Assembly (NCBI RefSeq): GCF_007859765.1
Contig: NZ_SIHJ01000001.1
Coordinates: forward strand, 1,240,767-1,304,766
Direction: 5' to 3'
Origin: Posidoniimonas corsicana
Lineage (GTDB): Bacteria > Planctomycetota > Planctomycetia > Pirellulales > Lacipirellulaceae
Length of the DNA stretch: 64,000 nt
Shown here: piece by piece, positions 13,915 to 46,188 of the stretch
Layout: each line of letters opens with the position of its first letter
Position numbering within the stretch: position 1 is the first letter of the stretch
The notes under the pieces: generated by a model
The model's database searches: none
What the model was told of the DNA's origin: nothing
What the model saw: only the letters and a program-made list of their open reading frames with translations
Made by a program: the position numbers and the translations under genes

Positions 13915-13934
13915 TTCACCACTGAGTCACTGAG
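13915..13934 (+). repeat. Left inverted repeat of the GxxExxY cassette
   Basis: TTCACCACTGAGTCACTGAG begins 23 bases after the argG stop. It is an 18/20 match to the reverse complement of 14374-14393. Together they frame the GxxExxY gene. A further GAGAACACCGAGAGAG follows in the same low-complexity style. Confidence 0.7.
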
Positions 13935-13965
13935 AACACCGAGAGAGCTCCCGGGAGGATTCCCC

Positions 13966-14349
13966 GTGGTCACAGGCTACCCGCACTCTGACCTAACTGA
14001 GCAGGTGATTGGGGCAGCAGTTGAAGTGCATCGGCATCTGGGACCGGGCCTGCTCGAATCCGCGTACGAGGAGTGCCTGTGTCGCGAACTTGCCGAACGT
14101 GGAATCCCCTTCGCACGTCAGGTGCCGCTGCCGATTGACTACAAGGGCCAGCGACTCGATGCGGGCTATCGAATCGATCTGCTGGTGGATGACAGGCTGA
14201 TCCTTGAGCTAAAGTCCGTGGACGCAGTGACCGGCATTCACGAGGCCCAGTTGCTTACCTACCTGCGACTCTCGGGCAAATCGGTGGGGCTGATAATCAA
14301 TTTCAACACTCAGCTGCTCAAACACGGGATCACACGCCGCGTGCTCTAG
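13966..14349 (+). CDS. GxxExxY protein (PD-(D/E)XK-like fold)
   Basis: The start is a GTG at 13966 with GGGAGGA six bases upstream, giving 127 residues. The family-naming motif is in GPGLLESAYEECL (G-L-L-E-S-A-Y), and the nuclease-like core D-(X)n-ELK is in YRIDLLVDDRLILELKSVD. The protein ends with the typical LINFNTQLLKHGITRRVL tail. The family is widespread, patchily distributed and has no proven function; the fold suggests nucleic-acid binding or cutting. The gene sits in the argG-GT9 junction between 20-bp imperfect inverted repeats, which suggests that gene and flanks arrived as a unit. Confidence 0.9.
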   Translation: MVTGYPHSDLTEQVIGAAVEVHRHLGPGLLESAYEECLCRELAERGIPFARQVPLPIDYKGQRLDAGYRIDLLVDDRLILELKSVDAVTGIHEAQLLTYLRLSGKSVGLIINFNTQLLKHGITRRVL

Positions 14350-14373
14350 CGTATTCTCCTGCTACTCCGATCC

Positions 14374-14393
14374 CTCCGTGACTCTGTGGTGAA
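14374..14393 (-). repeat. Right inverted repeat of the GxxExxY cassette
   Basis: CTCCGTGACTCTGTGGTGAA is the inverted partner of 13915-13934 (18/20). It contains both possible GTG start codons of the following glycosyltransferase gene (14386 and 14389), so the repeat now supplies or overlaps the translation start of the downstream gene. Confidence 0.7.
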
Positions 14394-15402
14394 TTCTCCT
14401 CCCCAACGCATCCTGGTCGTCCGCCTGCGGATGCTGGGCGACTCGCTCCTCGCTACGCCGCTGGTGCGGCAGCTCAAGAGGATCTACCCCGAGGCGGAGG
14501 TGGACCTGCTGTGCCAGCCGCAGAATGGGGCCATCTTCCTCTACAGCCCGCACGTCGCGCAGCGGCACCTGCTCCGCCGTAAGGCGTCGGCCGGCGAGAT
14601 CTGGTCGGTCGTCAGGGCAATGCGTGAGCGTCGGTACGACCTGGCGATCGACCTGCACGGCATCCCCAAGACCGCCTGGCTGACGCTGGCGAGCGGCGCC
14701 AAGCGGCGGATCGGCTACCGCAAGTGGCTGGCGCGGGGGCCGCTCTGCTACACGGAGTCGACGCCCCGCGACCAGATGCCGTACGAGTACAACGCCCGCC
14801 GCAACCTGCGGCTGCTGGGCGACGGCCGCGTGGACTACGACGACGTCGACCTCGAGTTCCCGATCAGCAGCGAGGACGAGGCCTTCGCCGACCAGTTCAA
14901 GGCCGATCACATCCCCGGGCGGACGGTCGCGATGTACGTCATCTCCCAGGACCCCGACAAGATCTGGCCCCCCGAGCGGTTCGCCCAGATCGCCGACCGC
15001 CTGTCGGAGCGGGGCTACACGCCGCTGATGGTGTACGGGCCGGGGCAGGAGCAGGCGACCCGCGAGGTGACCGACCGGATGAAGTCGCCGGCCGTGGTCG
15101 ACTACCCGATGCCGACCTTCCCGCAGCTAATGGGCGTGATGCGGCGGTGCGACCTGTTTGTCGGCAACGATGGCGGCCCCCACCACCTGGCCGCCACGGC
15201 CGGCCTGCCGATGGTATCGCTGTTCCAGATCAGCCCGGTAGAATGGACCCGCCCGCACCGCGAGCACCAAAGATTTGTCGCCCCGAGCGAAGTACAGACC
15301 CCGTGCGAGTCGTGCGGGACGTTTGTTGACCGTCCGTTCAAGGAGATCCCGACCGATGTGGTCTGGGAAGAAGTTGAGCGGGTGCTGGAGAATATCGGGT
15401 AG
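14386..15402 (+). CDS. Glycosyltransferase family 9 (heptosyltransferase-like)
   Basis: About 338 residues of GT-B fold. The N-terminus PQRILVVRLRMLGDSLLATPLVRQL is the GT9 acceptor-side signature (R.R.GD...TP). GNDGGPHHLAAT near residues 255-270 is the nucleotide-sugar site, and the protein ends with a cysteine pair in PCESCGTFVD. GT9 enzymes add heptose or related sugars during lipopolysaccharide core or glycan assembly at the inner membrane face. The donor sugar cannot be read from sequence. The start is uncertain: GTG at 14386 or 14389, both inside the inverted repeat that borders the GxxExxY cassette; no ATG exists before the first motif. Confidence 0.9.
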   Translation: MVNSPPQRILVVRLRMLGDSLLATPLVRQLKRIYPEAEVDLLCQPQNGAIFLYSPHVAQRHLLRRKASAGEIWSVVRAMRERRYDLAIDLHGIPKTAWLTLASGAKRRIGYRKWLARGPLCYTESTPRDQMPYEYNARRNLRLLGDGRVDYDDVDLEFPISSEDEAFADQFKADHIPGRTVAMYVISQDPDKIWPPERFAQIADRLSERGYTPLMVYGPGQEQATREVTDRMKSPAVVDYPMPTFPQLMGVMRRCDLFVGNDGGPHHLAATAGLPMVSLFQISPVEWTRPHREHQRFVAPSEVQTPCESCGTFVDRPFKEIPTDVVWEEVERVLENIG

Positions 15403-15469
15403 TTGGTTCCGCGGCTGGCGCCGTGGGCCGAACGACCTCCGCTAGCAACCTACCACCGACCAGCCGCCT

Positions 15470-17110
15470 ATGTACGTGCGTGACAACCCCGTGCTGCAGT
15501 ACGAACTGCTGAGCACCCTGCGTCTGCCGCGGGCGTTTGTGCTGCTGTTTGCGTACATCGCGCTCTTGGGCGGCGTAGTGCTGCTGGCTTGGCCGCAGGA
15601 GCAGAAGCTCGACTTCGCCCAGCCGGAGGAGGCCAAGCGGCTGGTCGAGCTGTTCTTTTTCGGGCAGTACATGCTGGCGTCGCTGATGGCGCCCAGCTTC
15701 GCCGCGGGCTCGATCACTGGCGAGAAGGAACGCGACAGCTACGAGATGCTGCTCGCCAGCCCGATCAAGCCGGGCGCCATCGTGCTGGGCAAGCTGTTCG
15801 CGTCGCTCACCTACCTGGGCATCCTGATATTCTGCTCGCTGCCGATCGTGATGCTCTGCCTGCCGCTGGGGGGCGTGTCGGCGCTGGAGGTGTTCGCGGC
15901 GTACATCGCCATGTTCTCCATGGTGGCGTTGTTCGGCATGATCAGCCTGTGGGCCAGCAGCTACTTCAAACGCACCAGCGCGTCGCTGGTGGTGTCGTAC
16001 CTGATGATCCTGCCGCTGGCGATCGTAGGAGTGCTGGTGTGGAACGCGTTGGAGCAGCTCGGCCCGGCGCGGGTGGCGTTCGTCTCGACGGTCGTGCCGA
16101 TCGCGTGCGCCGCGGTGGGCGCAGTGCTGTGGGCCGACATCGCGCGGCGGCTGCTGTACCCGGCCGACCTGGGCTCGGGCGGCAAGGAAGTGGTCGACCT
16201 GGAGAGCGAGGCCCGCGAGGCGGTGGGCCTGTACATCAAGCGCGACGAGTTTCCCGACAAGCTGTTCGCCCCGCCGAAGCGGACCACCTTTATCGAGGAC
16301 GGCGCCAACCCGATCTACGACAAGGAGATGCGGAGCGAGATCTTCGCCCAGGGCACGCTGATGCTCCGGCTGGTGATCCAGATCTCGATGGGCCTGGCGC
16401 TGCCGATCATGGCGGTCTGCCTGTACATGTACATGAACCTGGCGCCGTGGTACATCGCGTACGTTCTGCTGTTCAACATGCTTGTGGGACCGGTGTTCTC
16501 GGCCGGCAGCGTCTGCAACGAGCGAGAACGCCAGACCCTCGACCTGCTGCTCACGACGCTCATCACCCCCTGGCAGATGCTGTGGGGCAAGCTGCTGAGC
16601 GGGCTGCGGGTGTCGGTAGTGTTGACCTCGTTCCTGCTGTGGCCGGTGCTACTAGCGTGCCTGATGCCGCTGGACTACTGGAACAACCTGCCGACCATGG
16701 CGGGCTACCTGCTGGTTACGGCGCTGGCGTGCCTGACCACCGCGTTCACGGCGCTCTTCTGCTCGACCATCTACCGCAAGACGTCCAGCAGTTTGATGAC
16801 CACCTACGTGCTGATTTTGACGATGTTCGTGGCGCCGCTGGCTGCGCGGTTTTTTTCCGACACGTTCTTCCAGGACACGGCCGGCGCCCGGGTAGTGCAC
16901 GCGGTCAGCAGCGTCAGCCCGTTCGCCGCGGTGTTCGCGCTGCCGCTCGACATCGAGCACTCCAACGACCGGTCGGACGCGGCGGTGCAGCAGGCCATCG
17001 GCGACATGGGCGTGTTCTACGGGTACGTCGGCTGGACGGTGCTGTACAACGCGGCGTTGCTGCTGCTGATCATGTGGCTGTTCCACGCCCGCTGGCGGGT
17101 GTCCGAGTAG
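15470..17110 (+). CDS. ABC-2 type permease, tandem duplicated halves
   Basis: The 546-residue membrane protein has about 12 hydrophobic segments and two related halves. Each opens with an NP...E.. stretch (NPVLQYELLSTLR near residue 5; NPIYDKEMRSEIF near 281). Each also has a matching cytoplasmic motif: GEKERDSYEMLLASPIKPG and NERERQTLDLLLTTLITPW, both followed by GKL. This is a fusion of two ABC-2 permease units in one chain. Such permeases export polymers, lipids or drugs, or help motility and envelope processes, using a separate ATPase. No ATP-binding subunit gene is adjacent on either side, so the partner is elsewhere or shared. Confidence 0.88.
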   Translation: MYVRDNPVLQYELLSTLRLPRAFVLLFAYIALLGGVVLLAWPQEQKLDFAQPEEAKRLVELFFFGQYMLASLMAPSFAAGSITGEKERDSYEMLLASPIKPGAIVLGKLFASLTYLGILIFCSLPIVMLCLPLGGVSALEVFAAYIAMFSMVALFGMISLWASSYFKRTSASLVVSYLMILPLAIVGVLVWNALEQLGPARVAFVSTVVPIACAAVGAVLWADIARRLLYPADLGSGGKEVVDLESEAREAVGLYIKRDEFPDKLFAPPKRTTFIEDGANPIYDKEMRSEIFAQGTLMLRLVIQISMGLALPIMAVCLYMYMNLAPWYIAYVLLFNMLVGPVFSAGSVCNERERQTLDLLLTTLITPWQMLWGKLLSGLRVSVVLTSFLLWPVLLACLMPLDYWNNLPTMAGYLLVTALACLTTAFTALFCSTIYRKTSSSLMTTYVLILTMFVAPLAARFFSDTFFQDTAGARVVHAVSSVSPFAAVFALPLDIEHSNDRSDAAVQQAIGDMGVFYGYVGWTVLYNAALLLLIMWLFHARWRVSE

Positions 17111-17208
17111 CGGCGTGCGCGGGTAGGGCGCGGCGATTTACCGGGGTGGATTGCCCGCCGGGCGGGGCTGTGCGATAACGCTAGCAACGCCGACGCAAGG
17201 AGCCGAAG

Positions 17209-18480
17209 TTGTCTACGCCAGCCGATCAGAACGCCAGCCGGGGCCAAGCGCCCACTCAGGATGAGTTGAACCTGGAGCACTACGCCGCCCGGTTGGAGCG
17301 GCCCGTGCTGATGAAGGCGCCCGACTTCCAACGCGGCGACCGGCTGCGTCACGTGGTGTTCTCCGGCCAGTTCACCCCGGCCATGCTGTCCGAGCTGGCC
17401 GAGACCGCCGACATGATCCGGCTGCTCTCCAAGAGCCGCGGCGGGCAGGACTTTCTGCGGAACCTGCTGTCGCACCGCCGCGCAATGCTGTACTTCACCC
17501 AGCCCTCGACGCGGACGTTCTTGTCGTTCATGGCGGCCTGCCAGATCCTGGGGATTACCTGCAACGAGGTCCGCGACCCGAGCACCTCGTCCGAGACCAA
17601 GGGCGAGACCCGCTTCGATTCAATCCGGATGTTCTCCAGCTACTTCGACCTGATCATCATGCGGTCGCCGGTGGCCAAGTTGGCCGAGTCGTGCGCGTAC
17701 CTGATGAACGACCTGGAGCGGAGTGGTCAGCGCAGCGTGCCCCTGATCAATGCCGGCAGCGGCGCCGACGAGCACCCCACCCAGGCGCTGTTGGACATCT
17801 ACACGCTGCAGCGGACGTTCAACTTCGAGAACCCGCGTGACTCGCCCGGCGGCGACAAGCTGGAGCGTCTGCGGCAGATGCCCGGCTACGGCGACCTGAC
17901 CAAGGGCCTCGAGAACAAGACTTACGCCTTCTGCGGCGACATCGGCCGCGGCCGCACGGTCCGCTCGCTGGCAATGCTGCTGGCCGCCTACGAAGGCGTG
18001 CGGCTGGTGTTCATTTCGCCGGACCACCCGAAGCTCCGCATCCGCGAGGACCTGAAGCAGCGGCTCGCCGACCGTGGCGTGCCGGTGTACGAGCTCGACT
18101 CGTTCGAGGCCCACCTGGACGGCAAGCCGGTGATCGAGCAGGTCGACGCGCTCTACATGACGCGGGTGCAGAAGGAGCACGACGACCCCGAGGACGCCGA
18201 GTCGATGGCCGCCATCGACACCCTCAAATACCGGCTGACCCCAGAACTGGTTGCACGGATGCGGCTGTACACCCCCATCCTGCACCCGTTCCCGCGCGAC
18301 CAGCACTTCGGCGAGATCCCCCCCGAGGTCGACGACGACCCCCGCGCCATGTACTTCCGCCAGGCCCGCAACGGCATGTGGGTCCGCGCGGCGCTGCTGG
18401 CGCACGTGATGGACGTCGACCACGCCATCGCCCGCCACTTCTTTGAGACCTACCGCGAGCGGCACGTCTACAACGACTAG
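17209..18480 (+). CDS. pyrB: Aspartate carbamoyltransferase, long planctomycete-type form
   Basis: From a TTG with AAGGAG upstream the protein is 423 residues. Carbamoyl-phosphate binding is shown by FTQPSTRTFLSF, the 80s-loop-like RDPSTSSETKGE, and HPTQALLD. The aspartate side has HPFPRDQHFGEIPPEV, fitting ATCase better than ornithine carbamoyltransferase. The enzyme makes carbamoyl aspartate in pyrimidine synthesis. It is about 100 residues longer than E. coli PyrB, through an N-terminal extension (about 50 residues) and inserts between the domains near residues 205-230. No pyrI or pyrC is adjacent. ATCase rather than a related transcarbamylase is favoured but not proven. Confidence 0.85.
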   Translation: MSTPADQNASRGQAPTQDELNLEHYAARLERPVLMKAPDFQRGDRLRHVVFSGQFTPAMLSELAETADMIRLLSKSRGGQDFLRNLLSHRRAMLYFTQPSTRTFLSFMAACQILGITCNEVRDPSTSSETKGETRFDSIRMFSSYFDLIIMRSPVAKLAESCAYLMNDLERSGQRSVPLINAGSGADEHPTQALLDIYTLQRTFNFENPRDSPGGDKLERLRQMPGYGDLTKGLENKTYAFCGDIGRGRTVRSLAMLLAAYEGVRLVFISPDHPKLRIREDLKQRLADRGVPVYELDSFEAHLDGKPVIEQVDALYMTRVQKEHDDPEDAESMAAIDTLKYRLTPELVARMRLYTPILHPFPRDQHFGEIPPEVDDDPRAMYFRQARNGMWVRAALLAHVMDVDHAIARHFFETYRERHVYND

Positions 18481-18497
18481 CCCCCAGGAGCGAGCAC

Positions 18498-19211
18498 ATG
18501 GCCCGCTCGCCCGCGCGTGTCCGGCTGCTGATCGACGGTTACAACCTGCTGCACGCCACCGACGTGCACGGCGCCGACGCCCTGGCAGGCACGCTGCAGG
18601 GCGCACGCGAGGCGTTGCTGTCATTCCTGGCCTCACGGCTGACAAAGCGCGAGCGGAAGCGTGCGGTGATTGTGTTCGACGCCGCCGGCGCGCCGCCCGG
18701 GCTGCCCGACCAGTACACGTACGAGGGCGTCCACGTGCTGTTCGCGCGCCGCTACGCGGACGCCGACGCCATGCTCGAGGCCCTGATCGAAGCGGACCGG
18801 GCGCCCAAGGAACTGCTTGTGGTGTCCGGGGACCGCCGCGTGCAGAGGGCAGCGCGGAGCCGCGGAGCCGCCTGGCGGGACAGCTCCGACTGGAACCGCG
18901 AGCTCCTCCGCCGCCCGGCCCACCCGGTCTCCGCGCCGCCTGTATCCACTCCGGAGAAGCCCGCAGACATCGGCGACGCCGACTACTGGGTCAACGAGTT
19001 CTCTCAGCCGCTGCCGCCCGACGAGGCCGCGCCGGAGCCCGCCCCGCCGGCGCGGTCCGGAGCGGGCGACCCGGCGTCCGAATCGCCCGCGTCACCGCCG
19101 CGTGGGGAGAAGCCGGACGAGAGTTCGGGAAATCCCTTCCCGCCAGGCTACGCAGAAGATTTGGCGGCGGAGCTCGAAAAACCGGCACGACGCCACCCCC
19201 CACGGGGGTAG
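18498..19211 (+). CDS. NYN-domain (YacP-like) putative ribonuclease
   Basis: 237 residues from an ATG with CAGGAG upstream, 17 bases after pyrB. The first 150 residues match the YacP-like NYN/PIN fold: RLLIDGYNLLHA with the first metal-binding Asp, VIVFDAAG, YADADAMLEALIEAD, and VVSGDRRVQRAARSRGA. In Bacillus the relative Rae1/YacP cuts mRNA on the ribosome. The C-terminal 85 residues are Pro/Ala-rich and probably unstructured. RNase activity is inferred from the fold and acidic residues. It is likely co-transcribed with pyrB because of spacing. Confidence 0.82.
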   Translation: MARSPARVRLLIDGYNLLHATDVHGADALAGTLQGAREALLSFLASRLTKRERKRAVIVFDAAGAPPGLPDQYTYEGVHVLFARRYADADAMLEALIEADRAPKELLVVSGDRRVQRAARSRGAAWRDSSDWNRELLRRPAHPVSAPPVSTPEKPADIGDADYWVNEFSQPLPPDEAAPEPAPPARSGAGDPASESPASPPRGEKPDESSGNPFPPGYAEDLAAELEKPARRHPPRG

Positions 19212-19335
19212 GCCACCCGCCCAGCCGGCGCATCTGTCCCAGTACGCGCGCGCGTCCGGTCCCGTGTGCGGTCATCCCCCCGGCCGCCATTTCTGTGCTG
19301 CGCTGTGGATCTCCAGGTCCGCCGCGGCGCGCATC

Positions 19336-19358
19336 TGATGACCTACTTTTTGTCATCA
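19336..19358. promoter_or_regulatory. Small perfect inverted repeat upstream of cheA
   Basis: TGATGAC (19336-19342) and GTCATCA (19352-19358) form a perfect 7-bp inverted repeat around a T-rich 9-base centre, in the AT-richest part of the 215-base gap before the chemosensory operon. It could be an operator or a weak hairpin at the promoter. No good -35/-10 pair was found beside it. Confidence 0.35.
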
Positions 19359-19426
19359 AACACATTTTAGCGCAGGGATTTCGTGATCCCACGCGCTGAC
19401 CTCTGCGACCCGCGCGGGAGAAGACG

Positions 19427-22147
19427 GTGGAAGACAACGAACTGCTGAACGACTTCGTCATCGAGTCCAAAGAGCACCTGGCCGACGTTGAGAACCAGTT
19501 CCTGGCCATCGAGGAGCAGGGCGCCAACATCGACGTGGACCTGATCAACGAGGTGTTCCGCGCCATCCACTCCATCAAGGGCGCGGCGGGTTTCCTGGGG
19601 CTGACCACGGTCAACGACCTGGCCCACAGCCTCGAAAACCTGCTGAACATGATGCGCAATCGCGAGCTGGCGCCCACGTCGGCCATCGTGGACGTCATGC
19701 TCAAGGCCGCGGACACGCTCACCTCGATGATCGACGACGTTCACAACTCGTCGACCTACGACATCAGCCACCACGTCGAGTCGCTCGAAGCGATCGCTGT
19801 CGGCGCCGAGGCCCCGACCGCCGCCGCCCCGGCCGCCCCACCCGAACCGGTCGCCGACGAGGCGGCCCCGTCGACGGAGCTGACGCTCGACGAGCAGATC
19901 GAAGCCGCCATCGCCGCCAAGCTGGCGGCGAAGAACGCGGCCAAGGCCGCCGAGGCGCCTCAACCCGCCGCATCTCCCGCCCCCCCCGAACCCCCGCAGG
20001 CGAAGCCCATGGCAGAGGAATCCAGCAAGCCGTCGCCGACGGCGGACGCCAACATCCGCGTGTCGGTGACCGTCCTCGACAGCCTCATGAACCTGGCGGG
20101 CGAGCTCGTGCTCAGCCGCAACCAGCTGATGCAGGCGGTCGCCTCGGAGGAGCGGTCGGGCCTCGAGGCCACCTCCGCACGCATCGACCAGGTGACCAGC
20201 GAGCTGCAAGAGGCGATCATGCAGACCCGCATGCAGCAGATCGGCTCGGTCTTCAGCCGGTTCCCGCGGGTTGTGCGCGACCTCAGCGCCAAGCTCGGCA
20301 AGCAGTGCGAGCTGGAGATCGAGGGCAAGGAGGTCGAGGTCGACAAGACGATTGTCGAGGCGATCGGCGACCCGCTCACCCACCTGATCCGCAACTCGGT
20401 CGACCACGGCCTGGAGTCGCCGGACGCGCGGGTCAAGAACGGCAAGCCGGCCAGCGGCAAGATCGAGCTCCGCGCCTGCTACCAGGCCGGCAAGGTCCGC
20501 ATCGAGATCAACGACGATGGCGGCGGCATCAACCCGGCCGTGCTCAAAGAGAAGGCGGTCTCCAAGGGGGTCATCACCCAGGAGAAGGCCGACCAGATGG
20601 GAGACCGCGAGGCGGTCCGGCTGATCTTCGCACCGGGCTTCTCCACCGCCAAAGAGGTAACCGACGTCAGCGGCCGCGGCGTCGGGATGGACGTCGTGCG
20701 GACGAACATCGCCAAGCTGGGCGGCACGGTCGACGTCGAGTCGGTGCTCGGCAAAGGCACCAGCATCATCGTCACCCTGCCGCTGACGCTGGCCATCATC
20801 CCTTCGCTCATCATCCAGGCGGGCGGGGACCGCTTCGCGATCCCCCAGGTCAACATCGCCGAGCTGGTCCGCGTCCGCGAGAGCGAACGCGAAACCAAGC
20901 TGGGCCGCGTCAAGAACGCCGAGGTGCTCCGCCTGCGGGGCAGCCTGCTGCCGCTGGTGCGTCTGAACGAGGCCCTCAACTGCGGCGGACCAGAGGAAGA
21001 CGAGCACAACAAGACCGGCGCCACCAACATCATCGTCGTCGACACCGGGCAGACCCGCTTCGGGCTGGTGGTCGACGCGCTGCACGACTCGGAGGAGATC
21101 GTGGTCAAGCCGCTCGGCCGGCACCATAAGAACTGCCGCACGCTGGCCGGCGCCACGATCCTCGGCGACGGGCACGTCGCGCTGATTCTGGACATCGCCG
21201 GCATCGCCGCTCACCAGGACCTGCGCACCGACGAGGAGCTGCAGGCGGCCGCCGACAAGCACGCTGAGCAGTCGAACGAGGAGACCGACGAGCAGGCCGT
21301 GATGCTGTTCGAGAACGGCCCGGGCGAGCAGTTCGCCGCCCCGATGGCCCTGATCGCCCGCATCGAGCGGATCCGCACCGACCAGATCGACACGGTCGCC
21401 GGGCAGGAGGTGCTGCAGTACAAGAGCACCACGCTGCCGCTGCTGCGGCTGGAGAACTGCATCCGTGCGACGCCGCCCGGGCCGATGGACCGGGCTTACG
21501 TCGTGGTGTTCGAGGTGCGGGGGCGAGAGGTCGGCCTGATCGCCCCGGTCCTGCACGACATCACCAACGTCACGACCAACATCGACACCGCGACCTTCAG
21601 CGAGCAGGGCGTGGTTGGCTCGCTCGTGCGGAACGACAAGACCGTGCGTCTGATCGACTTCTACGAGATCACCCAGCTCTCTCACCCCGAGTGGTTCCTG
21701 GGCGACGAGCCCGCCGGCTACGCCGACGACGCGCTGCCGCCGCTGGTGCTGCTGGCAGAGGACTCGACGTTCTTCCGCACCCAGGTGCAGAAGATGTTCG
21801 AGGACAAGGGCTACCGGGTCGAGGCCTGCGAGGACGGACAGGTCGCGTGGGACAAGCTGGCCAGCGGCGAGTACGCGCCGGACGTCGTGGTGACGGACAT
21901 CGAGATGCCCAACATGGACGGCTTCCAGCTCTGCCAGAAGATCCGCGACTCGGCCCAGTTCCGCGACCTGCCGGTCATCGCGCTGACCTCGCTGGCCGGG
22001 ACGTCGGACATCCAGCGGGGCATCGAGGTCGGCATCGACGACTACCAGATCAAGATGGACCGCGAGAAGCTGCTCAACTCCCTACGCAACTTTGTCGACC
22101 ACGGCGTCGACCGCAACAAGAATCAGTCCCAGCTCGTGGAGGCCTAG
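19427..22147 (+). CDS. cheA: Hybrid CheA histidine kinase with two CheW-like domains and a C-terminal receiver
   Basis: 906 residues from a GTG with GGGAGAAG upstream. In order: Hpt domain with phospho-acceptor H48 in FRAIHSIKGAAGF, an Ala/Pro-rich linker (about 125-200) in place of P2, the dimerisation domain (about 205-270), and a HATPase with HLIRNSVDHGLE. Then come a CheW-like domain, a second diverged CheW-like segment (about 620-760), and a receiver (about 773-890) with D824 in VVTDIEMPNMDG. It phosphorylates receiver domains in response to the MCP. The built-in receiver replaces or sinks the signal for a separate CheY, which is absent here. It heads a tight operon. Confidence 0.94.
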   Translation: MEDNELLNDFVIESKEHLADVENQFLAIEEQGANIDVDLINEVFRAIHSIKGAAGFLGLTTVNDLAHSLENLLNMMRNRELAPTSAIVDVMLKAADTLTSMIDDVHNSSTYDISHHVESLEAIAVGAEAPTAAAPAAPPEPVADEAAPSTELTLDEQIEAAIAAKLAAKNAAKAAEAPQPAASPAPPEPPQAKPMAEESSKPSPTADANIRVSVTVLDSLMNLAGELVLSRNQLMQAVASEERSGLEATSARIDQVTSELQEAIMQTRMQQIGSVFSRFPRVVRDLSAKLGKQCELEIEGKEVEVDKTIVEAIGDPLTHLIRNSVDHGLESPDARVKNGKPASGKIELRACYQAGKVRIEINDDGGGINPAVLKEKAVSKGVITQEKADQMGDREAVRLIFAPGFSTAKEVTDVSGRGVGMDVVRTNIAKLGGTVDVESVLGKGTSIIVTLPLTLAIIPSLIIQAGGDRFAIPQVNIAELVRVRESERETKLGRVKNAEVLRLRGSLLPLVRLNEALNCGGPEEDEHNKTGATNIIVVDTGQTRFGLVVDALHDSEEIVVKPLGRHHKNCRTLAGATILGDGHVALILDIAGIAAHQDLRTDEELQAAADKHAEQSNEETDEQAVMLFENGPGEQFAAPMALIARIERIRTDQIDTVAGQEVLQYKSTTLPLLRLENCIRATPPGPMDRAYVVVFEVRGREVGLIAPVLHDITNVTTNIDTATFSEQGVVGSLVRNDKTVRLIDFYEITQLSHPEWFLGDEPAGYADDALPPLVLLAEDSTFFRTQVQKMFEDKGYRVEACEDGQVAWDKLASGEYAPDVVVTDIEMPNMDGFQLCQKIRDSAQFRDLPVIALTSLAGTSDIQRGIEVGIDDYQIKMDREKLLNSLRNFVDHGVDRNKNQSQLVEA

Positions 22148-22150
22148 ACC

Positions 22151-25041: not shown

Positions 25042-25051
25042 TCCCAACGAC

Positions 25052-27068: not shown

Positions 27069-27080
27069 GGTCGCGTTCGT

Positions 27081-38189: not shown

Positions 38190-38267
38190 GCACGGAAGGA
38201 CTAAAGGGGATCGAATGGTGGGCCCGCAGCTTAGCAGGCCCCCCTCGCAGCGGCGACCCGCCCCACG

Positions 38268-39305: not shown

Positions 39306-39621
39306 CCTAGAGCTCAGGTTGAGTTAGAGTTTCAAGTCAGGCAACGGCATTGGGACGAGTTACGGAAACCCCGTCTGAGCCCGCTTGGCGCCGAGCGGTG
39401 TGGGTATTCGCCGCTGCACGCCCGGCTGTCCCAGCCCACCACCATCTCCACAACCCTAACGGGCATAAGGGATTACAGGATTTCCCTCAATTTCTTCTGC
39501 CAGATGGAATAGTCCAGCCCGCAACTCCGAATCGTAGTGCGGAACGAGCGTGGCGTGCTAAGATGCAGGCCACGGAATACTCCAGCATCTGCACGGAACA
39601 GGCAGATAGGAGAGGCAACGG
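39306..39621. other. Intergenic region between esterase and ECF sigma gene
   Basis: About 316 bases with no convincing gene. It is somewhat richer in A/T than its neighbours and must hold the divergent promoters of the esterase and the sigma factor. No clear -35/-10 pair or hairpin was found. An AGGAGAGG ribosome-binding site for the sigma gene sits at its right end. Confidence 0.6.
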
Positions 39622-40122
39622 GTGTCGCTATCAAGGGCCGATTTTCACGTCCTGATCGAGGAGCATGCCTCCGCATTGTACCGGCTGGCCTACCGCCTGG
39701 TGGGTTCGCCGCACGACGCGGAGGACATCGTGCAGGAAACCATGCGTAGCGCATGGACCAGCCGAGAGCGATTCGAGCAGGGTCGAGGCGAACGGGCCTG
39801 GCTAGCGGCAATTTTGCGGCGGCGTGTCGTCGACCGCTGGCGGCGTTCCGGGAGAGTCCCGGTCGCGGCTGGCGAGCGTGTGATGGACGTCGCTTGCGAG
39901 GCCGAGGATCCGTTGGCTCACGAGTATACCGACGAGATGCAGTACGCACTCTCCAAGCTGTCCCCCGAACTCCGAGAGTCGCTGCTCTTGGTTGTCGTGG
40001 GAGAGCTTACCCACCAGCAGACCGCTGACGAATTGGGCGTGCCGTTAGGAACGGTGCTCTCACGCGTCAGTCGGGCCCGCCGGCGACTCCGCCAATACCT
40101 CCTCAGCGTCTCCAAGCGATAG
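39622..40122 (+). CDS. ECF-type sigma-70 family RNA polymerase sigma factor
   Basis: 166 residues from a GTG with AGGAGAGG upstream. Region 2 is seen as LIEEHASALYRLAYRLVGSPHDAEDIVQETM and the DNA-binding region 4 as LSPELRESLLLVVVGELTHQQTADELGVPLGTVLSRVSRARRRL. The two are joined by a short linker, as in ECF sigma factors. It should direct RNA polymerase to a small regulon, possibly including its own promoter and the genes after it. No classical zinc-binding anti-sigma gene follows; the next gene encodes only 75 residues. Confidence 0.92.
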   Translation: MSLSRADFHVLIEEHASALYRLAYRLVGSPHDAEDIVQETMRSAWTSRERFEQGRGERAWLAAILRRRVVDRWRRSGRVPVAAGERVMDVACEAEDPLAHEYTDEMQYALSKLSPELRESLLLVVVGELTHQQTADELGVPLGTVLSRVSRARRRLRQYLLSVSKR

Positions 40123-40360
40123 CCATGCGACAAGCCGCTGTGTCGTAAGCTTTGTTGAGAGAGTGCTGCCGACCCCCGCGTCGCGTGCTGCCTGGCGTGC
40201 CCAGCAGAACGCTGCGGACTGATGCCCGCGCCGAATCATGCCCGCCGCCTCGGCGGTGTGGGCCGGCCGGGGAGGGAGGGGACGCCCCCCGGGCGTGTAA
40301 CTTGTATTCGATCGGCGCTGGTTTCCATGGCGGCGCCGGTTGGGAAAGTGAACCAGTTTA

Positions 40361-40588
40361 ATGTCAGACCACCTTCCTTCGCTGGACGCCTCGGACAGCG
40401 GCTTCCTCAATGCGTTCGTCGGCCCGCACCGGCTCGACCCCTCCCAGCGGGGCGTCGCCTCGCGCGTGGGCGGCGAGGCTCCTGCCCCACCTGCCGCCGA
40501 ATCGGTCGACCTCGACGCGTTGCTGCAGAACGTGCGCATTCCCGATGGCCTGCACAATCGTTTGAACCAGATTGCTGCAGAAGAGTGA
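40361..40588 (+). CDS. Small protein downstream of the ECF sigma factor
   Basis: 75 residues from an ATG, with no membrane helix or cysteine/histidine metal site. The N-terminus SDHLPSLDASDSGFLNAF and the C-terminus LDALLQNVRIPDGLHNRLNQI are the conserved-looking parts. The latter resembles, by eye, the N-terminal start of some planctomycete membrane anti-sigma-like proteins (LL.NV..P.GL..RL), but here the chain stops before any helix. It may be a truncated or soluble anti-sigma factor. The link to the sigma factor rests on position only; a 238-base gap separates them. Confidence 0.6.
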   Translation: MSDHLPSLDASDSGFLNAFVGPHRLDPSQRGVASRVGGEAPAPPAAESVDLDALLQNVRIPDGLHNRLNQIAAEE

Positions 40589-40652
40589 ACGGACGGCTTT
40601 CTGCCAACTAATGGAGCTAACCGTCTGGTTTCGCTTATAGTCAAGGGAATGC

Positions 40653-43600
40653 GTGCGTCACGCGACGACTCTGCTCGCCACAGCCGCTTGCCCCCTTGTC
40701 CCCCCTATGCTCTCCAGGCGATTCTCCCTATCCCTCTCGTTGGCGCTGACGCTGTGGTTCCAGCCGTGCGAGTCCAGCGCCGCCGACGACACGGCAGCAT
40801 TCCTCGACGCGATGCGTCAGGCGGGCAACTACGAACTGACGCTCGAGTACCTGGACCTCGTCTCCGCTTCGGACCGCACCTCGCCCGAAACCCGCTCGCG
40901 GATCCCGTACGAGCGGGCGGTGACTCAGCTCGAACAGGCGCAGACCATTAGCTCTTCCTCCGCCCGCCAGGCGGCGGTCGCCTCTGCCCGCCGCGAACTG
41001 CAGGAGTTCATCAACGGCGGCGCCGAGCCGCGCCTGGCCGCCGAGGCCAGCGTCAAGCTGGCCGGCGCCCTGGTGAACGGGGCAGGCCGCAGCCTGCTGG
41101 CTATGGAACGCCAGCCCCAACGGGCGAACAACGCCGACCTGAAACAGGCCCGCCGCGACATCGAGGACGCGCGGGGCTACCTGTCCCAGGCGGAAGACTC
41201 CTACCAACAGGCCCTCGAGCCCCTCAGATCCGTCCAGCCGGGCAGCGACGCGTCGCAGCTGCGGCTGCAGCTCCGCTTCGAACTCGCGCAGGCGCGGTTC
41301 GACAGCGCAAGAGCATTGGCGGAGCTGGCCAACACGTTCCCGTCGGACTCGCGTGAGCGGAAGCAGACGCTAGAGAACGCCGCGAAGGAGTTCGCCTCGC
41401 TCTACGAGAAGTACGACACCCAGCAGTCGGCCGGCATCGGCTTCCACGCCCACCTGTACGAGGGCCGCTGCTACCAAGAGCTGGGCGACCACCGACTAGC
41501 CGACGGCTGCTTCGAGGTGGTGGCTTCACTGCCGACCGAAGACCCCAGTCTCCGCCGCCTGGTGCGGATGGCGCAGGCAAGCCTGGTCGCTGGGCTGACC
41601 GCCCAGGGTAAGGCGGACGAGGCGCTCGAGCGGGGCGCCGACTGGGTAGACGACGTGCCCCGTCAGGAGCAGTCGCGGCCCGACGTGCTAGCTCTCAAGC
41701 ACCAGCTCGGCGAGGCCGCGCTCTCCGCCGCCGACTCGACCGACGACCAGGGCGACTCACGCGAGCTGCGCAAGCAGGCCCGCCAGTATTTCACCGCAGC
41801 CTCGCGTGGGTTCAACGAACACCAGGCCGACGCCCGCCTCCGCCTGGCCGCGCTGTCCGAAGAACTCGGCGACCAGCAGGTGCAGGCCGCCACGTTCGAC
41901 GAGGCGTTCCAGATTGGCGTCGACGCGCTCAACGCGGTGTTCGCCGCCCAGCTTGCGGCCAACGGCGGCCAGGACGCAGCCCCCACGGCCGCGGACAGCC
42001 AACGGGCGCTCGACGCGTTTCGGCAGGCGCTGCGACTCGCCGATTCCGAGACCCCGCTCGCCCGCCTCAATGACGCCCGCAACAAACTCAGCTACCTTTA
42101 CTGGGAGTCCGGCGACTACCTCAGCAGCGCCGCCCTGGCGGAGTTCCTCGCCACCAAGCACCCGGACGACCCCAATGCCGAGAGCGCCGCCAAGCTGGCG
42201 ATGGCCTCCTTTGAGAAGCTGCGGACGGAAGCCGAGCAGACCGGCGAGCCGACCCAATTCGCCACCGACCACCTGGTCCGCTTGAGTGAGTTTGTCACCC
42301 GCCGCTGGGCGGGCGAGCCGCTGGCGGACTCGGCGTTTAAGGTGCTGCTAGCAACCGCAATCCGCGACAACCGCTTGGAAGACGCCCGCAGCGTCCTCGC
42401 CGGCGTCGACCCGGAACGCCGCGCGCCGCTCGAACTGCGGCTCGCGCTGGCCAACTGGGAACAAATCGCCCGCGGCGGGAACGCCGAGGCCACGCCGGCC
42501 CAACGCGACCAGGCGATCGCGGCCCTGGAGTCCGCCTTCCGGGCGGTCAGGGAGCAGGGCCAGGTCGACGCGACCGGCGCGACCGGCGCCCTGTTCCTCG
42601 CCCAGGCCAAGCTCGGCCAGGGCGACGCACAGTCCGCCGCGAAGCTGCTAGAGGATTCCAAGCTCGGACCACTGACACTCGCCAACCAAGACGCGCCGGC
42701 GATCGCCGACAACCCAGGCTTCAAGGCCGAGGCGTACCGCACGGCGTTGCAGGCGTACCTGTCGGTCACGCCCCCCCGCACCGCCGAAGCGATGCAGATG
42801 ATGGAGACCCTCGAGTCCGCCGTCGCCGACAAGTCGGCCCTCACACGCATCTACTTCGCCCTCGGCGTGCAGCTGCAGCGGCAGATCGAACAGCTCAACC
42901 AGGCCGGCAAGTCCGCCGACGCGCAGCGGGTGAGCTCCGCGTTCGCGGAGTTCATCTCCCGCATCGGCGACGCCGGCGACGGCGCCGACTGGACCATGCA
43001 GCAGTGGATGGCCCAGACCTTCCTGAAGCTCGCCGAGGGCCTCGGCGATGGCGACGCCGAGCAACGCACCGCCTTCTACCAGCGCGCCCGCGACGGCTTT
43101 CAAACCCTCGCGGACCGCGCCGCGAGCGATCCGGCCTCGATGCCGAGCCCCACGTCGGGGCTGGCGGTGCGGATGCAGCTCGGGGCGGCCCTGCGGGGCC
43201 TGGGCGAGTACGACCGGGCGGTCGATGTGTTCACCGACCTCTTGGCCGAACGCGAGATGATGCTCGACGTCCAGAAGCTGGCCGCGTACACGCTCCAGGA
43301 GTGGGGCGAGTCGGGCGACCCCGAGCGGCTGCAGCAATCGATCGGCGGCGCCCGCAAGTCGCCCCAGACCGGCAAGAACCTGATCTGGGGCTGGAGCAAA
43401 CTGGCCAGCGTCAGCGGCAAGGTCGCCCGCAGCAAGCCGGAGTACCGGGATCTGTTCTTCGAATCCTGGCTGAACGTCGCCACCAGCCGGTACCTGGCCG
43501 GCATGCAGTCCAGCGGCGACCGGAAGACCAAACAGCTCGCCAGCGCCCGCAAGACAATCCTCCTGTTGTCGCGGCAGTATTCCGACCTGGGCGGCCCCGC

Positions 43601-43745
43601 GATGCGTAGCCGCTTCGACACGCTGCTCAAGAAGATCCAACGGGCCCAGGGCGAAGAGCCGGCGGGCCTGGCTGAATTCACCACCGCTTCGCTCATTGAG
43701 TCCTCCCGCCGCATGGCCGGCGTCAAACACTTATCAGCAGCATGA
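40653..43745 (+). CDS. Secreted helical-repeat (TPR-like) protein of about 1030 residues
   Basis: From a GTG at 40653 the protein carries a signal peptide (SLSLSLALTLWFQPCESSAA); an ATG at 40707 would begin just before it and is equally plausible. The remainder is helical-repeat sequence rich in Ala, Gln, Leu and Arg, with TPR-like segments such as YEGRCYQELGDHRLADGCF and GAALRGLGEYDRAVDVFTDL. It is the first gene of a second Exb operon and overlaps the next gene by four bases. It is not obviously a sequence duplicate of the similar-sized protein at 6688-9780. Periplasmic scaffold function is inference. Confidence 0.83.
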   Translation: MRHATTLLATAACPLVPPMLSRRFSLSLSLALTLWFQPCESSAADDTAAFLDAMRQAGNYELTLEYLDLVSASDRTSPETRSRIPYERAVTQLEQAQTISSSSARQAAVASARRELQEFINGGAEPRLAAEASVKLAGALVNGAGRSLLAMERQPQRANNADLKQARRDIEDARGYLSQAEDSYQQALEPLRSVQPGSDASQLRLQLRFELAQARFDSARALAELANTFPSDSRERKQTLENAAKEFASLYEKYDTQQSAGIGFHAHLYEGRCYQELGDHRLADGCFEVVASLPTEDPSLRRLVRMAQASLVAGLTAQGKADEALERGADWVDDVPRQEQSRPDVLALKHQLGEAALSAADSTDDQGDSRELRKQARQYFTAASRGFNEHQADARLRLAALSEELGDQQVQAATFDEAFQIGVDALNAVFAAQLAANGGQDAAPTAADSQRALDAFRQALRLADSETPLARLNDARNKLSYLYWESGDYLSSAALAEFLATKHPDDPNAESAAKLAMASFEKLRTEAEQTGEPTQFATDHLVRLSEFVTRRWAGEPLADSAFKVLLATAIRDNRLEDARSVLAGVDPERRAPLELRLALANWEQIARGGNAEATPAQRDQAIAALESAFRAVREQGQVDATGATGALFLAQAKLGQGDAQSAAKLLEDSKLGPLTLANQDAPAIADNPGFKAEAYRTALQAYLSVTPPRTAEAMQMMETLESAVADKSALTRIYFALGVQLQRQIEQLNQAGKSADAQRVSSAFAEFISRIGDAGDGADWTMQQWMAQTFLKLAEGLGDGDAEQRTAFYQRARDGFQTLADRAASDPASMPSPTSGLAVRMQLGAALRGLGEYDRAVDVFTDLLAEREMMLDVQKLAAYTLQEWGESGDPERLQQSIGGARKSPQTGKNLIWGWSKLASVSGKVARSKPEYRDLFFESWLNVATSRYLAGMQSSGDRKTKQLASARKTILLLSRQYSDLGGPAMRSRFDTLLKKIQRAQGEEPAGLAEFTTASLIESSRRMAGVKHLSAA

Positions 43746-44776
43746 AGAACCACCCACTCCAGTACCTCGCGGCCGTAGCGGTCGCGCTGTTGATCACGCA
43801 ACCCGCGGCCGCTCAGACCGATCGGGTGAAGACCACCTCCGGGGTCAAGACCGGCACGGTCACCCAGGTCGGCCCGCTCGGCGTGACGGTCGAGCGGAGC
43901 GGCCGCGAGACGCCGATCTCGGTCGCCGCGATCCGCACCATCCAGTTCGGCGACGAGCCGTCCGAGCTCACCAAGGCCCGCGTCAACGCGCTCAGCGGCG
44001 CGTACGCCAAGGCGCTGGAGAGCCTAGCGCAGGTCGACGCTGCGTCACTCAAACGGGACGAGGTCAAGCAGGAGGTCGAGTTCTACACGGCCTACTGCCG
44101 GGCGAAGCAGGCGCTCGTGGGCGAGGGATCCGTGTCCAGCGCCGGCTCCGAGCTGAACAACTTTGTGAAGAACAACCGGCAGAGCTTCCACTTCCTCGAG
44201 GCCAACGAGCTGCTGGGGGACATGCTGGTCGCGCTCGGCAGAAGCGACGACGCGGTCAAGCGGTACGAGGTGCTCGCCCGGAGCCGCCTGCCCGCGTTCA
44301 AGATCCGCTCGGCCGTGCTGGTCGGCAAGACGCTGCAGGCCGCCGGTCAGCACGATGAAGCCATCCAGCGGTTCTCCCAGGCCGAAGCCATGGCCGGCGA
44401 CTCCGACGACGACAAGCCTCAGCTGCTGGCCGCGCAGCTTGGCCGAGCGGTCAGCCTGGGCGCCACCGGCAAGGTGGACGAGGGCGTGGAGCTGGTCCGC
44501 TCCGTCATCGCCGAGGCCGACCCCGAGGAGCAGCAGCTGCACGCCGACGCCTACAACGCCCTGGGCGGCTGCTACCTGCTGGCCGACCGCACCAAGGAGG
44601 CGCTCTTCGCCTACCTGCACGTCGACCTGCTGTACGACTCTGACCCCGCCGCCCACGCCGAGGCGCTCTACCACCTCGGCCAGCTGTGGGAAGCGATCGG
44701 CCAGTCCTCCAAGGCGCTCGACGCGCGCAAGACGCTCAAGGCCGAGTACGCGTCGAGCAAGTGGGCAAACCGCTAG
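43742..44776 (+). CDS. Secreted protein with N-terminal beta domain and TPR repeats
   Basis: 344 residues, start overlapping the previous stop by four bases (ATGA). The signal peptide is at about 8-25 (ending QPAAAQ). Residues about 28-70 form a small beta domain (KTGTVTQVGPLGVTVERSG, ISVAAIRTIQFGDEP), followed by TPR-like helical repeats (ANELLGDMLVALGRSDDAVKRY; AYNALGGCYLLADRTKEALFAY; ALYHLGQLWEAIGQSSKAL). It is probably a periplasmic partner of the larger TPR protein and of the ExbB/ExbD stator encoded after it. Confidence 0.83.
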   Translation: MKNHPLQYLAAVAVALLITQPAAAQTDRVKTTSGVKTGTVTQVGPLGVTVERSGRETPISVAAIRTIQFGDEPSELTKARVNALSGAYAKALESLAQVDAASLKRDEVKQEVEFYTAYCRAKQALVGEGSVSSAGSELNNFVKNNRQSFHFLEANELLGDMLVALGRSDDAVKRYEVLARSRLPAFKIRSAVLVGKTLQAAGQHDEAIQRFSQAEAMAGDSDDDKPQLLAAQLGRAVSLGATGKVDEGVELVRSVIAEADPEEQQLHADAYNALGGCYLLADRTKEALFAYLHVDLLYDSDPAAHAEALYHLGQLWEAIGQSSKALDARKTLKAEYASSKWANR

Positions 44777-44953
44777 CGCCGGCCCGCACGCCGTGCGACT
44801 CACCCCACCCTCCTAACTGCTACGTCTTGGCGCCGCGGGCCCGCCGCCGGGCATCGGGCGCCCGCCGCGGGCTTTGCGGGCCTGTCGCGGCGTGACTAGA
44901 CTGAAACCTCTACCGGAACAGATGCCTTGGCGCCCCAGCCACAGGAGAACCAG

Positions 44954-45745
44954 ATGCGGTCACCACTCGCCCCGTTCGGCCCCCGCGGCCTGACGGGCTC
45001 CCTCTCGTTCGCGTTGCTCATCGGCGTGCTCGCCACGCCCGGCGTGGCGCTTGCCCAGGACGGGGACGCCGGCAACGCCGCCGCGCAGATCGAGCAGATG
45101 AACTACCTGACCTGGGTGGCCACCTCGCTCGGCTGGGGCTACAGCATCGTGTTCCTGGCGCTCTCGTTTACGCTGGTCGCGTTGTTCGTCATGAACCTGC
45201 TGCAGGCCAGCCGCGGCAACGTGGTGCCGGCCGAGCTCACCGAGAGCTTCGAGGAGCACCTCAACGCCAAGCAGTACACCGAGGCCTACGAGCTGGCCAA
45301 CGCCGACGAGTCGTTCCTCGGCAAGGTGCTCTCCGCCGGCCTGGGCAAGCTGTCCGGCGGCCAGAGCTACGCCCACGCCATCGAGGCCATGCAGGAGGTC
45401 GGCGAAGAGGAGAACATGAAGCTCGAGCACCGCCTGAGCTACATGGCGCTGATCGGCACCATCAGCCCGATGATCGGCCTGATGGGCACCGTGCAGGGCA
45501 TGATCAGCGCGTTCCAGACCATCGCCACCACCGCCAGCGGCGCCCCCAACCCGAGCGACCTGGCCGGCGACATCTCGACCGCGCTGTTCACCACCCTGGC
45601 CGGACTGATGATCGCCATCCCGGCGATCGCCGCGTACAACATCCTCCGCAACCGCATCGCCCGCCTGGTGCTGGAAGTCGGCATCGTCAGCGAGGGCCTG
45701 ATGAGCCGCTTCCAAAACGTCGGCGGAGGCAAGAAGGTAGAGTAG
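44954..45745 (+). CDS. exbB: ExbB/TolQ/MotA-family proton-channel protein (second locus)
   Basis: 263 residues from the ATG at 44954 with AGGAGAA upstream. A signal-like helix (about 12-33) is followed by a first membrane helix near 55-75 (YSIVFLALSFTLVALFVMNLL). A cytoplasmic domain comes next, then the paired signature helices ALIGTISPMIGLMGTVQGMISAF and ALFTTLAGLMIAIPAIAAYNIL. It should form the proton channel with the two ExbD proteins encoded downstream. The operon is now interrupted directly after its stop codon by the four-helix-bundle insert. Confidence 0.93.
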   Translation: MRSPLAPFGPRGLTGSLSFALLIGVLATPGVALAQDGDAGNAAAQIEQMNYLTWVATSLGWGYSIVFLALSFTLVALFVMNLLQASRGNVVPAELTESFEEHLNAKQYTEAYELANADESFLGKVLSAGLGKLSGGQSYAHAIEAMQEVGEEENMKLEHRLSYMALIGTISPMIGLMGTVQGMISAFQTIATTASGAPNPSDLAGDISTALFTTLAGLMIAIPAIAAYNILRNRIARLVLEVGIVSEGLMSRFQNVGGGKKVE

Positions 45746-45766
45746 GCGCTGGCTGGAGGGCGCTGG
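45745..45766 (+). repeat. Left inverted repeat of the four-helix-bundle insert
   Basis: This 22-base block begins with the last base of the exbB stop codon and matches the reverse complement of 46167-46188 in 21 of 22 positions. It is made of GGCGCTGG-type words, with one more GCGCTGG copy directly after it. Confidence 0.75.
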
Positions 45767-45789
45767 GCGCTGGTGTTGAGGGGCAATCA

Positions 45790-46145
45790 TTGGCCGGCTA
45801 TCAGGATTTACGGGTTTGGAAGGAGGGAGTGAGACTCTCGCTAGAGGTCTATCGGTCGACTGCCACATTCCCGGACGACGAACGGTTCGGGCTCACCTCT
45901 CAGATTCGCAGAGCCGCCGTGTCAGTACCCTCCAACATTGCGGAGGGCGATGCCCGAAACATTCCGAGCGAGATGATACGATTCTCTGGAATCGCGTTGG
46001 GGTCACTCGCGGAGATCGAAACACAACTGTACATCGCTAGAGAATTGAATACCTCGACTTGACGTCGTACGAGTCGCTCGTCGCCATCACGACACCGCTC
46101 GGCAAGTTGCTACACGCCCTCATCCGCTCCAAGAGAACGACTTAA
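45790..46145 (+). pseudogene. Frameshifted four-helix-bundle protein (S23 family)
   Basis: From a TTG at 45790 the first frame reads AGYQDLRVWKEGVRLSLEVY, SQIRRAAVSVPSNIAEGDAR and FSGIALGSLAEIETQLYIAREL. This is the S23/four-helix-bundle family also found in intervening sequences of 23S rRNA. The frame stops at 46062. A second frame from 46050 continues exactly where the family should, with YLDLTSYESLVAITTPL and LLHALIRSKRTT, to a TAA at 46143-46145. A single base appears lost near 46048. Whether this is a real lesion or a sequencing error cannot be told here. It lies between exbB and exbD, flanked by 22-bp inverted repeats. Confidence 0.85.
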
Positions 46146-46166
46146 CGGCGCAGCCGTATCCAACAA

Positions 46167-46188
46167 CCAGCGCCCTCCAACCAGCGCC
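46167..46188 (-). repeat. Right inverted repeat of the four-helix-bundle insert
   Basis: The inverted partner of 45745-45766 (21/22). It ends four bases before the ATG of exbD at 46193, so it occupies the place of that gene's ribosome-binding region. No purine-rich Shine-Dalgarno sequence is left there. Confidence 0.75.

Follow-up and report, generated by a model that had tools for sequence, protein, structure and literature searches.

In a stretch of 64,000 nucleotides of the Posidoniimonas corsicana genome (contig NZ_SIHJ01000001.1, positions 1,240,767 to 1,304,766; hereafter the window), two unrelated small genes, one coding for a GxxExxY protein and the other for a four-helix-bundle protein of the 23S rRNA intervening-sequence protein (IVP, or S23) family, each lie between two inverted arrays of a short degenerate word. 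That such tiny word-ended cassettes form a real class is, in our judgement, highly probable. We propose, with a probability of roughly 0.5, that both window cassettes belong to a single class of minute DNA insertion cassettes (~0.45-0.5 kb) whose encoded proteins act on the cassettes' own ends. As the agent of movement we favour these proteins acting on the ends, in our eyes about an even bet. Cassettes built in this way are found in many bacterial groups and seem to be a kind of tiny insertion element that has hardly been described; the closest known thing is the intervening sequence (IVS) of 23S rRNA. We know of no established function for either protein family. The two cassettes are composed as follows.

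13915-14393: GxxExxY cassette, whole
13915..13934, + strand: left arm of the GxxExxY cassette, TTCACCACTGAGTCACTGAG; words CACTGAG and CACTGAG, with a third degenerate word on to ~13947
13966..14349, + strand: GxxExxY gene, PD-(D/E)XK, 127 amino acids; PF13366/TIGR04256
14374..14393, - strand: right arm of the GxxExxY cassette, TTCACCACAGAGTCACGGAG; includes the first GTG (14386) of the downstream glycosyltransferase frame
45745-46188: IVP/S23 (four-helix-bundle) cassette, whole
45745..45766, + strand: left arm of the IVP cassette, GGCGCTGGCTGGAGGGCGCTGG; starts on the last base of the ExbB-like stop codon
45790..46062, + strand: four-helix-bundle (23S rRNA-IVP/S23) gene, PF05635/TIGR02436; C-terminus moved to another frame
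46167..46188, - strand: right arm of the IVP cassette; ends 4 bp upstream of the ExbD-like ATG (46193)

Cassette anatomy and recurrence of the arms

The inverted arms of the GxxExxY cassette (TTCACCACTGAGTCACTGAG and TTCACCACAGAGTCACGGAG) match at 18/20 positions with a score of 30, which none of 200 dinucleotide shuffles reached (best 28), and those of the IVP cassette match at 21/22 with a score of 39, again above all 200 shuffles (best 28). The IVP arms are short: a 14-bp repeat is visible by eye, and lag 10 is the best among lags 7-10. Profile searches assigned the first protein to PF13366 (E 7.5e-43) and TIGR04256 (E 4.7e-45) and the second to PF05635 (E 6.9e-31). The latter copy is shortened, the match ending at position 87 of 106, and on our reading of the sequence the rest of the protein appears to run on in another frame to ~46146. 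Both cassettes are placed between genes of the + strand, namely argininosuccinate synthase (12669-13892) and a family-9 glycosyltransferase (14386-15402) in the first case and ExbB-like and ExbD-like genes in the second. No transposase was found inside either cassette, in agreement with an earlier note made on this DNA from its letters alone. That note had also held that both right ends touch the downstream start codon. The GxxExxY cassette goes beyond mere contact, the first GTG of the glycosyltransferase frame falling within the right arm; in the IVP cassette the arm stops 4 bp short of the ATG.

Arms of this kind recur far outside the window. Among pooled distinct loci, mostly the best-scoring members per genome, an arm score of at least 30 was reached by 104/131 GxxExxY loci as against 4/1310 shuffles, and by 61/76 IVP loci as against 0/760, which is not chance. 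The note's view that two unrelated genes share one cassette design is supported. The same score was reached by 1/30 exbD loci and 40/2000 random intervals of the home genome. At least one armed element was present in 38/56 organism labels for GxxExxY and in 21/26 for IVP. The home genome (G000, 6.77 Mb) carries four GxxExxY and seven IVP genes, and in 9/11, all but L003 and L011, the arms score higher than every one of 200 shuffles. A search of 43 genomes of the bacterial family at E<=1e-10 found GxxExxY in 39 and IVP in 37, with up to 10 and 17 copies per genome respectively, and 31/33 GxxExxY and 28/35 IVP loci lay above the 95% point (29) of a cross-locus left-right control; L105 was left out of this test for its short flank.

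Outside the family we took the best 80 of at least 581 GxxExxY loci, which by title belong to Bacteroidetes, Chloroflexi, Proteobacteria, Acidobacteria, Verrucomicrobia, cyanobacteria, Omnitrophota and Parachlamydiales. Arms could be scored in 77 of them, three having too little flank, and the median score was 40. IVP genes also occur in 38/50 GxxExxY-bearing genomes of other groups, and of 30 IVP loci from these genomes 27 score above the 95% point of the control and 20 above its 99% point. The one plasmid GxxExxY locus tested (L363) had an arm score of 45. In five genomes (L114, L115, L117, L119 and L120) two GxxExxY cassettes that differ in word type lie ~1.7 kb apart.

Each arm repeats a short degenerate word, which varies from element to element and agrees between the two arms of one element. 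Words read by eye in the home genome are CACTGAG, CGCAGAG and CACAAAG for GxxExxY, and AGCGATC, GGCTATT, GGTTTCG, GGCGCTG, GGATTGC and others for IVP. Self-match of IVP arms is 0.70 at lag 7, 0.71 at lag 14 and at most 0.30 at other lags (0.32 after shuffling), with the best lag at 7 or 14 in 111/122 arms, whereas GxxExxY arms are best matched at lags 8-10 (176/208 arms), words like CRCNRAG being spaced, by eye, by 1-3 bases. The two cargoes therefore have a common layout, not a common sequence. The earlier statement that end sequences differ per cargo is right as regards this period, but elements that carry the same cargo differ in their words too. The GxxExxY end motif is, by eye, similar in very distant bacteria.

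The type of protein and the type of end are linked. GxxExxY protein distance and end similarity are correlated with a rho of -0.51 (104 elements; 0/999 permutations as low), and with a rho of -0.48 when only pairs of different organism labels are used (4010 pairs; 0/999). For IVP the value over all pairs is -0.20 (61 elements; 0/999), and there the linkage does not extend to pairs from different organism groups. These comparisons exclude duplicates, short flanks and the interrupted GxxExxY matches of L124 and L125.

Junctions with and without a cassette

Orientation was assessed at 68 family loci. Flanks were too short at two of them, and codon usage allowed 61 of the remaining 66 to be classified (5 unclear). 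Same-strand junctions account for 54/61, as against 662/1056 adjacent gene pairs in the background (binomial p 6e-6), so that such junctions are preferred. Of the classified loci 53 are in sense with both neighbours and one is antisense; four lie in divergent and three in convergent junctions.

Occupied and empty forms of one junction were compared in Thioalkalivibrio, where the junction downstream of L193 was recovered from 15/30 genomes. Seven are occupied (L258-L263 and L266); the cassette is absent from L264, L265 and L267, which have short spacers, and also from the more distant L268-L272. In L264 the upstream stop codon TGA runs straight into TACAGGCCC, the same bases that in L258 come immediately after the cassette. 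Nine Thioalkalivibrio genomes bear GxxExxY, and in 7/9 the gene is single and located at this junction. The seven proteins form one clade (support 99 in a tree of 139) divided into three subclades (100 each), which by eye correspond to three end-word types. Because the outer left flank is partly common to different end-word types, one insertion appears to have switched its word in both arms, though the cassette at this site may instead have been replaced more than once. The ratio of nonsynonymous to synonymous substitution rates (dN/dS) of GxxExxY at this locus was 0.07, 0.07, 0.13 and 0.18 in four closer comparisons, and two further comparisons, with distant members, were saturated.

Cyanobacteria provided similar pairs for IVP. 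The cassette of a Calothrix brevissima plasmid (L364, L365) corresponds to a 3-base spacer in Nostoc carneum, Tolypothrix and Aulosira (89-91% identity) and also in Nostoc sp. TCL26-01 (78% identity); at the occupied junction ~11 bp are missing and the stop codon is supplied by the cassette. Nostoc edaphicum (L369) has an antisense IVP cassette in place of a 16-base spacer in the ribonucleotide reductase operon (85% identity). An IVP cassette also lies between cas6 and cas4 on a plasmid of Anabaena sp. 90 (L372), and a Dolichospermum plasmid, which aligns over 53% at 99.3% identity, has a different, gene-less inverted-repeat element at that insertion point. The comparisons L368/L381 and L372/L376 are not clean empty sites. 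In all, insertion as judged from the empty sites was precise, and no target duplication could be seen. Two further cas6-cas4 junctions were seen: that of a Pseudanabaena galeata plasmid (L375) holds an IVP cassette with heptamers unlike those of L372, and that of L382 is short and empty.

The earlier note had proposed a genome-wide scan for inverted repeats that enclose one short gene. Ours covered 1.82 of the 6.77 Mb (27%) with one shuffle. Inverted repeats with a score of at least 34 numbered 36, as against 12 in the shuffle, and those of 38 or more 15 as against 1, so that counting alone tests the idea only weakly. A word filter, run without a shuffle control, flagged 49 word-like pairs, and these enclose 5 of the 6 GxxExxY/IVP genes in that part of the genome. 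By eye the others comprise seven gene-less minis, one cassette with a third gene and 36 GC-rich look-alikes, the last being probably coding sequence. The seven minis (inner length 33-96 bp) bear, by eye, the words of gene-bearing cassettes in the same genome. An 831-kb set, largely selected around cassettes and hence biased, gave 63 inverted repeats of score 34 or more against 1 in a single shuffle. The third-gene cassette was located in two species.

G000:C1:4003098-4003550 (L353/L354): third-cargo cassette, zinc-ribbon, home genome
L108:11505-11940: the same cassette in the sister species

It consists of a 385-bp pair of heptamer arms around a gene for a 122-residue protein with a C-terminal zinc ribbon, and in the sister species the gene stands at the orthologous junction with identical heptamers. 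The protein matched no Pfam/NCBIfam family above its cut-off, and a relative in Bernardetia had an arm score of 22, below 30. The genes recognised inside such arms are only GxxExxY, IVP, this one zinc-ribbon gene and one Y1 gene.

Several observations concern the region of the window IVP cassette and the exbB-exbD junction of relatives (L020-L049).

46690..46800, + strand: gene-less tandem array of CACCACCCACCACG-like words (by eye, limits approximate)

This array separates two ExbD-like genes and is similar to the ends of another IVP cassette of the home genome (L007). Inspection of the relatives by eye revealed the end of a GxxExxY-like gene in L025 and gene-less inverted repeats in L023, L026, L027 and L029; a crude test for gene-less hairpins in 30 exbD spacers flagged L025 and L029 only. 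The sister species (G001/L021) has no gene in its exbB-exbD spacer and a solo array resembling a right end before exbD, which fits loss or prior presence alike. Exact cassette boundaries could not be taken from this species, in which identity is ~70-90% and the spacers are not alignable.

Encoded proteins and the agent of movement

The predicted GxxExxY structure has a mean confidence (predicted local distance difference test, pLDDT) of 94.4, and its closest folds in the PDB are lambda exonuclease and Cas4 (Foldseek best E 1.4e-3, template modelling (TM) score ~0.5); no sequence relative was found in the PDB at E<=1. In 39 sequences E31, Y34, D71, K83, H92 and Q95 are invariant and E81 and Y99 nearly so, and we take D71, E81, K83 and Q95 to be catalytic residues of the PD-(D/E)XK type. 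By profile, fold and conserved residues the protein fits the PD-(D/E)XK superfamily and is a predicted nuclease. Given this fold and a dN/dS of 0.07-0.18 at one locus it could itself be the active factor, in which case the term non-autonomous, used in the earlier note, would not apply. Avd, a protein of diversity-generating retroelements, is a related four-helix bundle and binds nucleic acid. The IVP family has solved relatives in the PDB (2gsc and 2rld), and the Xanthomonas S23p is a pentamer according to the available part of PMC4990558.

These features suggest the following mechanism. A cassette, that is, one small gene with inverted arrays of a degenerate short word at its two ends, would insert as DNA into short intra-operon junctions, mostly in sense, and to judge from this placement read-through by the host would express its gene. 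The insertion would sometimes replace the old spacer and provide a neighbour's stop or start codon. The encoded protein, with a lambda-exonuclease/Cas4-like nuclease fold in GxxExxY and as a pentameric four-helix bundle in IVP, would act on its own ends and might mobilise gene-less copies in trans. Strand-switch repair between the arms may keep the two arrays alike as the word drifts.

A number of results weigh against this proposal. Movement itself was not observed, only presence and absence between species, and no target-site duplication was visible at three junctions, whose empty and occupied forms are ~9-20% different. About a fifth of the GxxExxY/IVP genes have no detectable arms. Only 42/77 cross-group GxxExxY loci exceed the cross-locus 95% point, which is as high as 38 because GxxExxY ends are alike between loci, and only 4/11 plasmid IVP loci (L364, L369, L372 and L375) have an arm score of at least 30 within 200 bp of the gene. 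At the Thioalkalivibrio junction left-end copies are stacked in some species, G124 among them, and the left-right match is weak (19-26) in 4/7. GxxExxY was found on 5/72,556 plasmid records and 0/50,697 phage records (one query each), which is odd for a freely mobile unit. Two cyanobacterial plasmid IVP genes are antisense to both neighbours. As for the proteins, Foldseek gave no match below E 1e-3 for GxxExxY, and a heptamer-ended cassette contains the unrelated zinc-ribbon gene. The linkage of protein and ends could be explained by common descent of the unit without recognition, and for IVP it is not significant between organism labels (rho -0.08, 1160 pairs, 73/999 permutations as low); this value gives no support to IVP end words that are protein-specific between organism groups.

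The earlier note had looked for a mover elsewhere in the genome. A host-encoded enzyme, for example a Y1/RAYT transposase (RAYT, repetitive extragenic palindromic (REP)-associated tyrosine transposase), might read the ends and move non-autonomous cassettes with the small genes as passengers, which we consider unlikely. The Y1 look-up that the note proposed gave five matches in the home genome, and Y1 genes are present in 38/43 family genomes and in 43/50 GxxExxY genomes of other groups. In the 43 family genomes Y1 and GxxExxY copy numbers are correlated (rho 0.57, and 0.53 after genome size and completeness; kinship uncorrected), and three of the five family genomes without Y1 are also without GxxExxY and IVP. 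A passenger role would also fit the different cargo, the zinc ribbon, of one heptamer-ended cassette and the Y1 gene enclosed by a GxxExxY-type arm pair in L115. However, the two other Y1-less family genomes, both fragmentary assemblies, have GxxExxY and IVP genes, and a Y1 match at E<=1e-3 is lacking in 7/50 GxxExxY genomes from outside the family, six of the seven being metagenome-assembled genomes (MAGs) by title. The Y1-less bearers L164, L184, L194, L214 and L226, all MAGs of unknown completeness in which a Y1 gene may have been missed, have arm scores of 54-94, and L214 has the strongest arms (94) among the cross-group loci. Moreover, three Y1 genes inspected by eye have other, palindrome-like ends, and in L114 and L119 the ends that flank the Y1 gene are REP-like and palindromic. 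Y1 is a possible mover, not a required one. Two observations on Y1 itself may be added: the Y1 gene at L115:2621-3335 has REP-like ends besides the GxxExxY-type arms and is perhaps a nested or swapped element, and six Y1 matches with identical scores in G013 suggest that a Y1 element was recently active in that genome.

An RNA-level element, akin to the reverse-transcription route that the earlier note had mentioned, seems to us quite unlikely. Here the transcribed arms would form a stem excised by RNase III, as in the 23S rRNA IVS, and insertion would go via RNA by reverse transcription or reverse splicing. The sense bias of 53 to 1 in the home family would agree with it, and both window cassettes fold as RNA with their arms paired (z -3.9 with 0/100 shuffles as low for one, z -1.85 with 4/100 for the other). 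An analogy is offered by the Coxiella 23S IVS, which according to the available part of PMC4990558 carries an S23p gene and heptameric repeats, has a terminal stem of 28 bp and is excised by RNase III in vitro. Yet arm mismatches in the sense RNA are of the G-U versus A-C type at 114:110 in GxxExxY and 48:75, the reverse direction, in IVP; there is no G-U excess, and therefore no selection is seen for an RNA stem. Cyanobacteria have antisense insertions, 16 cassette loci matched no Rfam family at the gathering score, and the sense bias could come instead from a need for read-through expression or from harm done by antisense copies. Least probable of the three, in our estimate, is that nothing moves: ordinary small genes would lie in spacers where tandem-word repeats and hairpins resembling terminators accumulate, slippage and palindrome correction keeping them similar. 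This would suit the Thioalkalivibrio junction, where one insertion was apparently inherited while the word changed in both arms, as well as the other kinds of gene-less hairpin that occupy such spacers in relatives and the scarcity of GxxExxY on plasmids and its absence from the phage records searched. Immobility is already weakened by junctions found in empty and occupied form at 85-91% identity, and it would have to account for the rarity of such arms in random intervals and exbD controls, for the likeness of GxxExxY end motifs in very distant bacteria and for gene-less copies that bear the words of gene-bearing cassettes.

Known systems and significance

REP elements are small and intergenic, have palindromic ends and are tied to a single-gene RAYT (Y1) protein. 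The cassettes resemble them in being small, intergenic and bounded by inverted ends, and Y1 genes lie between inverted repeats of similar size in the same regions; they differ in that their arms are, by eye and without a separate palindrome search, inverted tandem words and not palindromes, and perhaps in the 7/50 bearers, six of them MAGs, without a Y1 match, the home genome having five. Miniature inverted-repeat transposable elements (MITEs) are gene-less and have ends in common with autonomous, transposase-bearing partners, and most DNA transposons duplicate their target site. Like MITEs and their partners, gene-less and gene-bearing cassettes have common ends within one genome, but no transposase was seen inside the cassettes, no target duplication is visible at the three junctions compared and the ends drift between elements.

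The 23S rRNA IVS of Coxiella, as far as described in the available part of PMC4990558, is ~430 bp long and has an S23 gene, stem-forming terminal inverted repeats and tandem heptamers just before the S23p start codon. The S23/IVP protein is encoded by the window IVP cassette and not by the GxxExxY cassette, and terminal repeats able to pair in RNA are, by computed fold, common to both window cassettes. The IVS sits in 23S rRNA and is excised by RNase III (same source), whereas the window cassettes lie between protein genes and the cargoes of the class include GxxExxY and a zinc ribbon. Heptameric tandem repeats have been described in Xanthomonas (GGGAATC) and Nostoc (GGGGA(C/T)T), with close inverted pairs in 70 and 75 cases in Xanthomonas and few in Nostoc and with no general link to mobile elements, in the available part of PMC4692102; the heptamer TAACTGA of Beggiatoaceae lies just before start codons (available part of PMC4679880). 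These are likewise 7-bp words in spacers, but the available parts of PMC4692102 and PMC4679880 draw no link to S23/IVP or GxxExxY. A literature search by title and start of abstract, mostly without subscription journals, returned no description of the GxxExxY cassette or of the general design, and GxxExxY is hardly named in the available portions of the literature searched (one passing mention).

We tentatively extend our proposal, at a level we would still call doubtful, to bacteria-wide, previously unrecognised minimal self-propagating DNA elements in which each protein reads its own word, the arms are copied onto each other and ends and protein co-evolve, the 23S rRNA IVS being the ribosomal branch. 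If true, the GxxExxY and IVP families, both present in many organism groups, would gain a role as element cores, and the unexplained intervening sequences of 23S rRNA would be tied to a general phenomenon. Such elements may also account for part of the heptamer repeats in bacterial spacers, and they would represent a small unit whose protein and DNA ends seem to evolve together.

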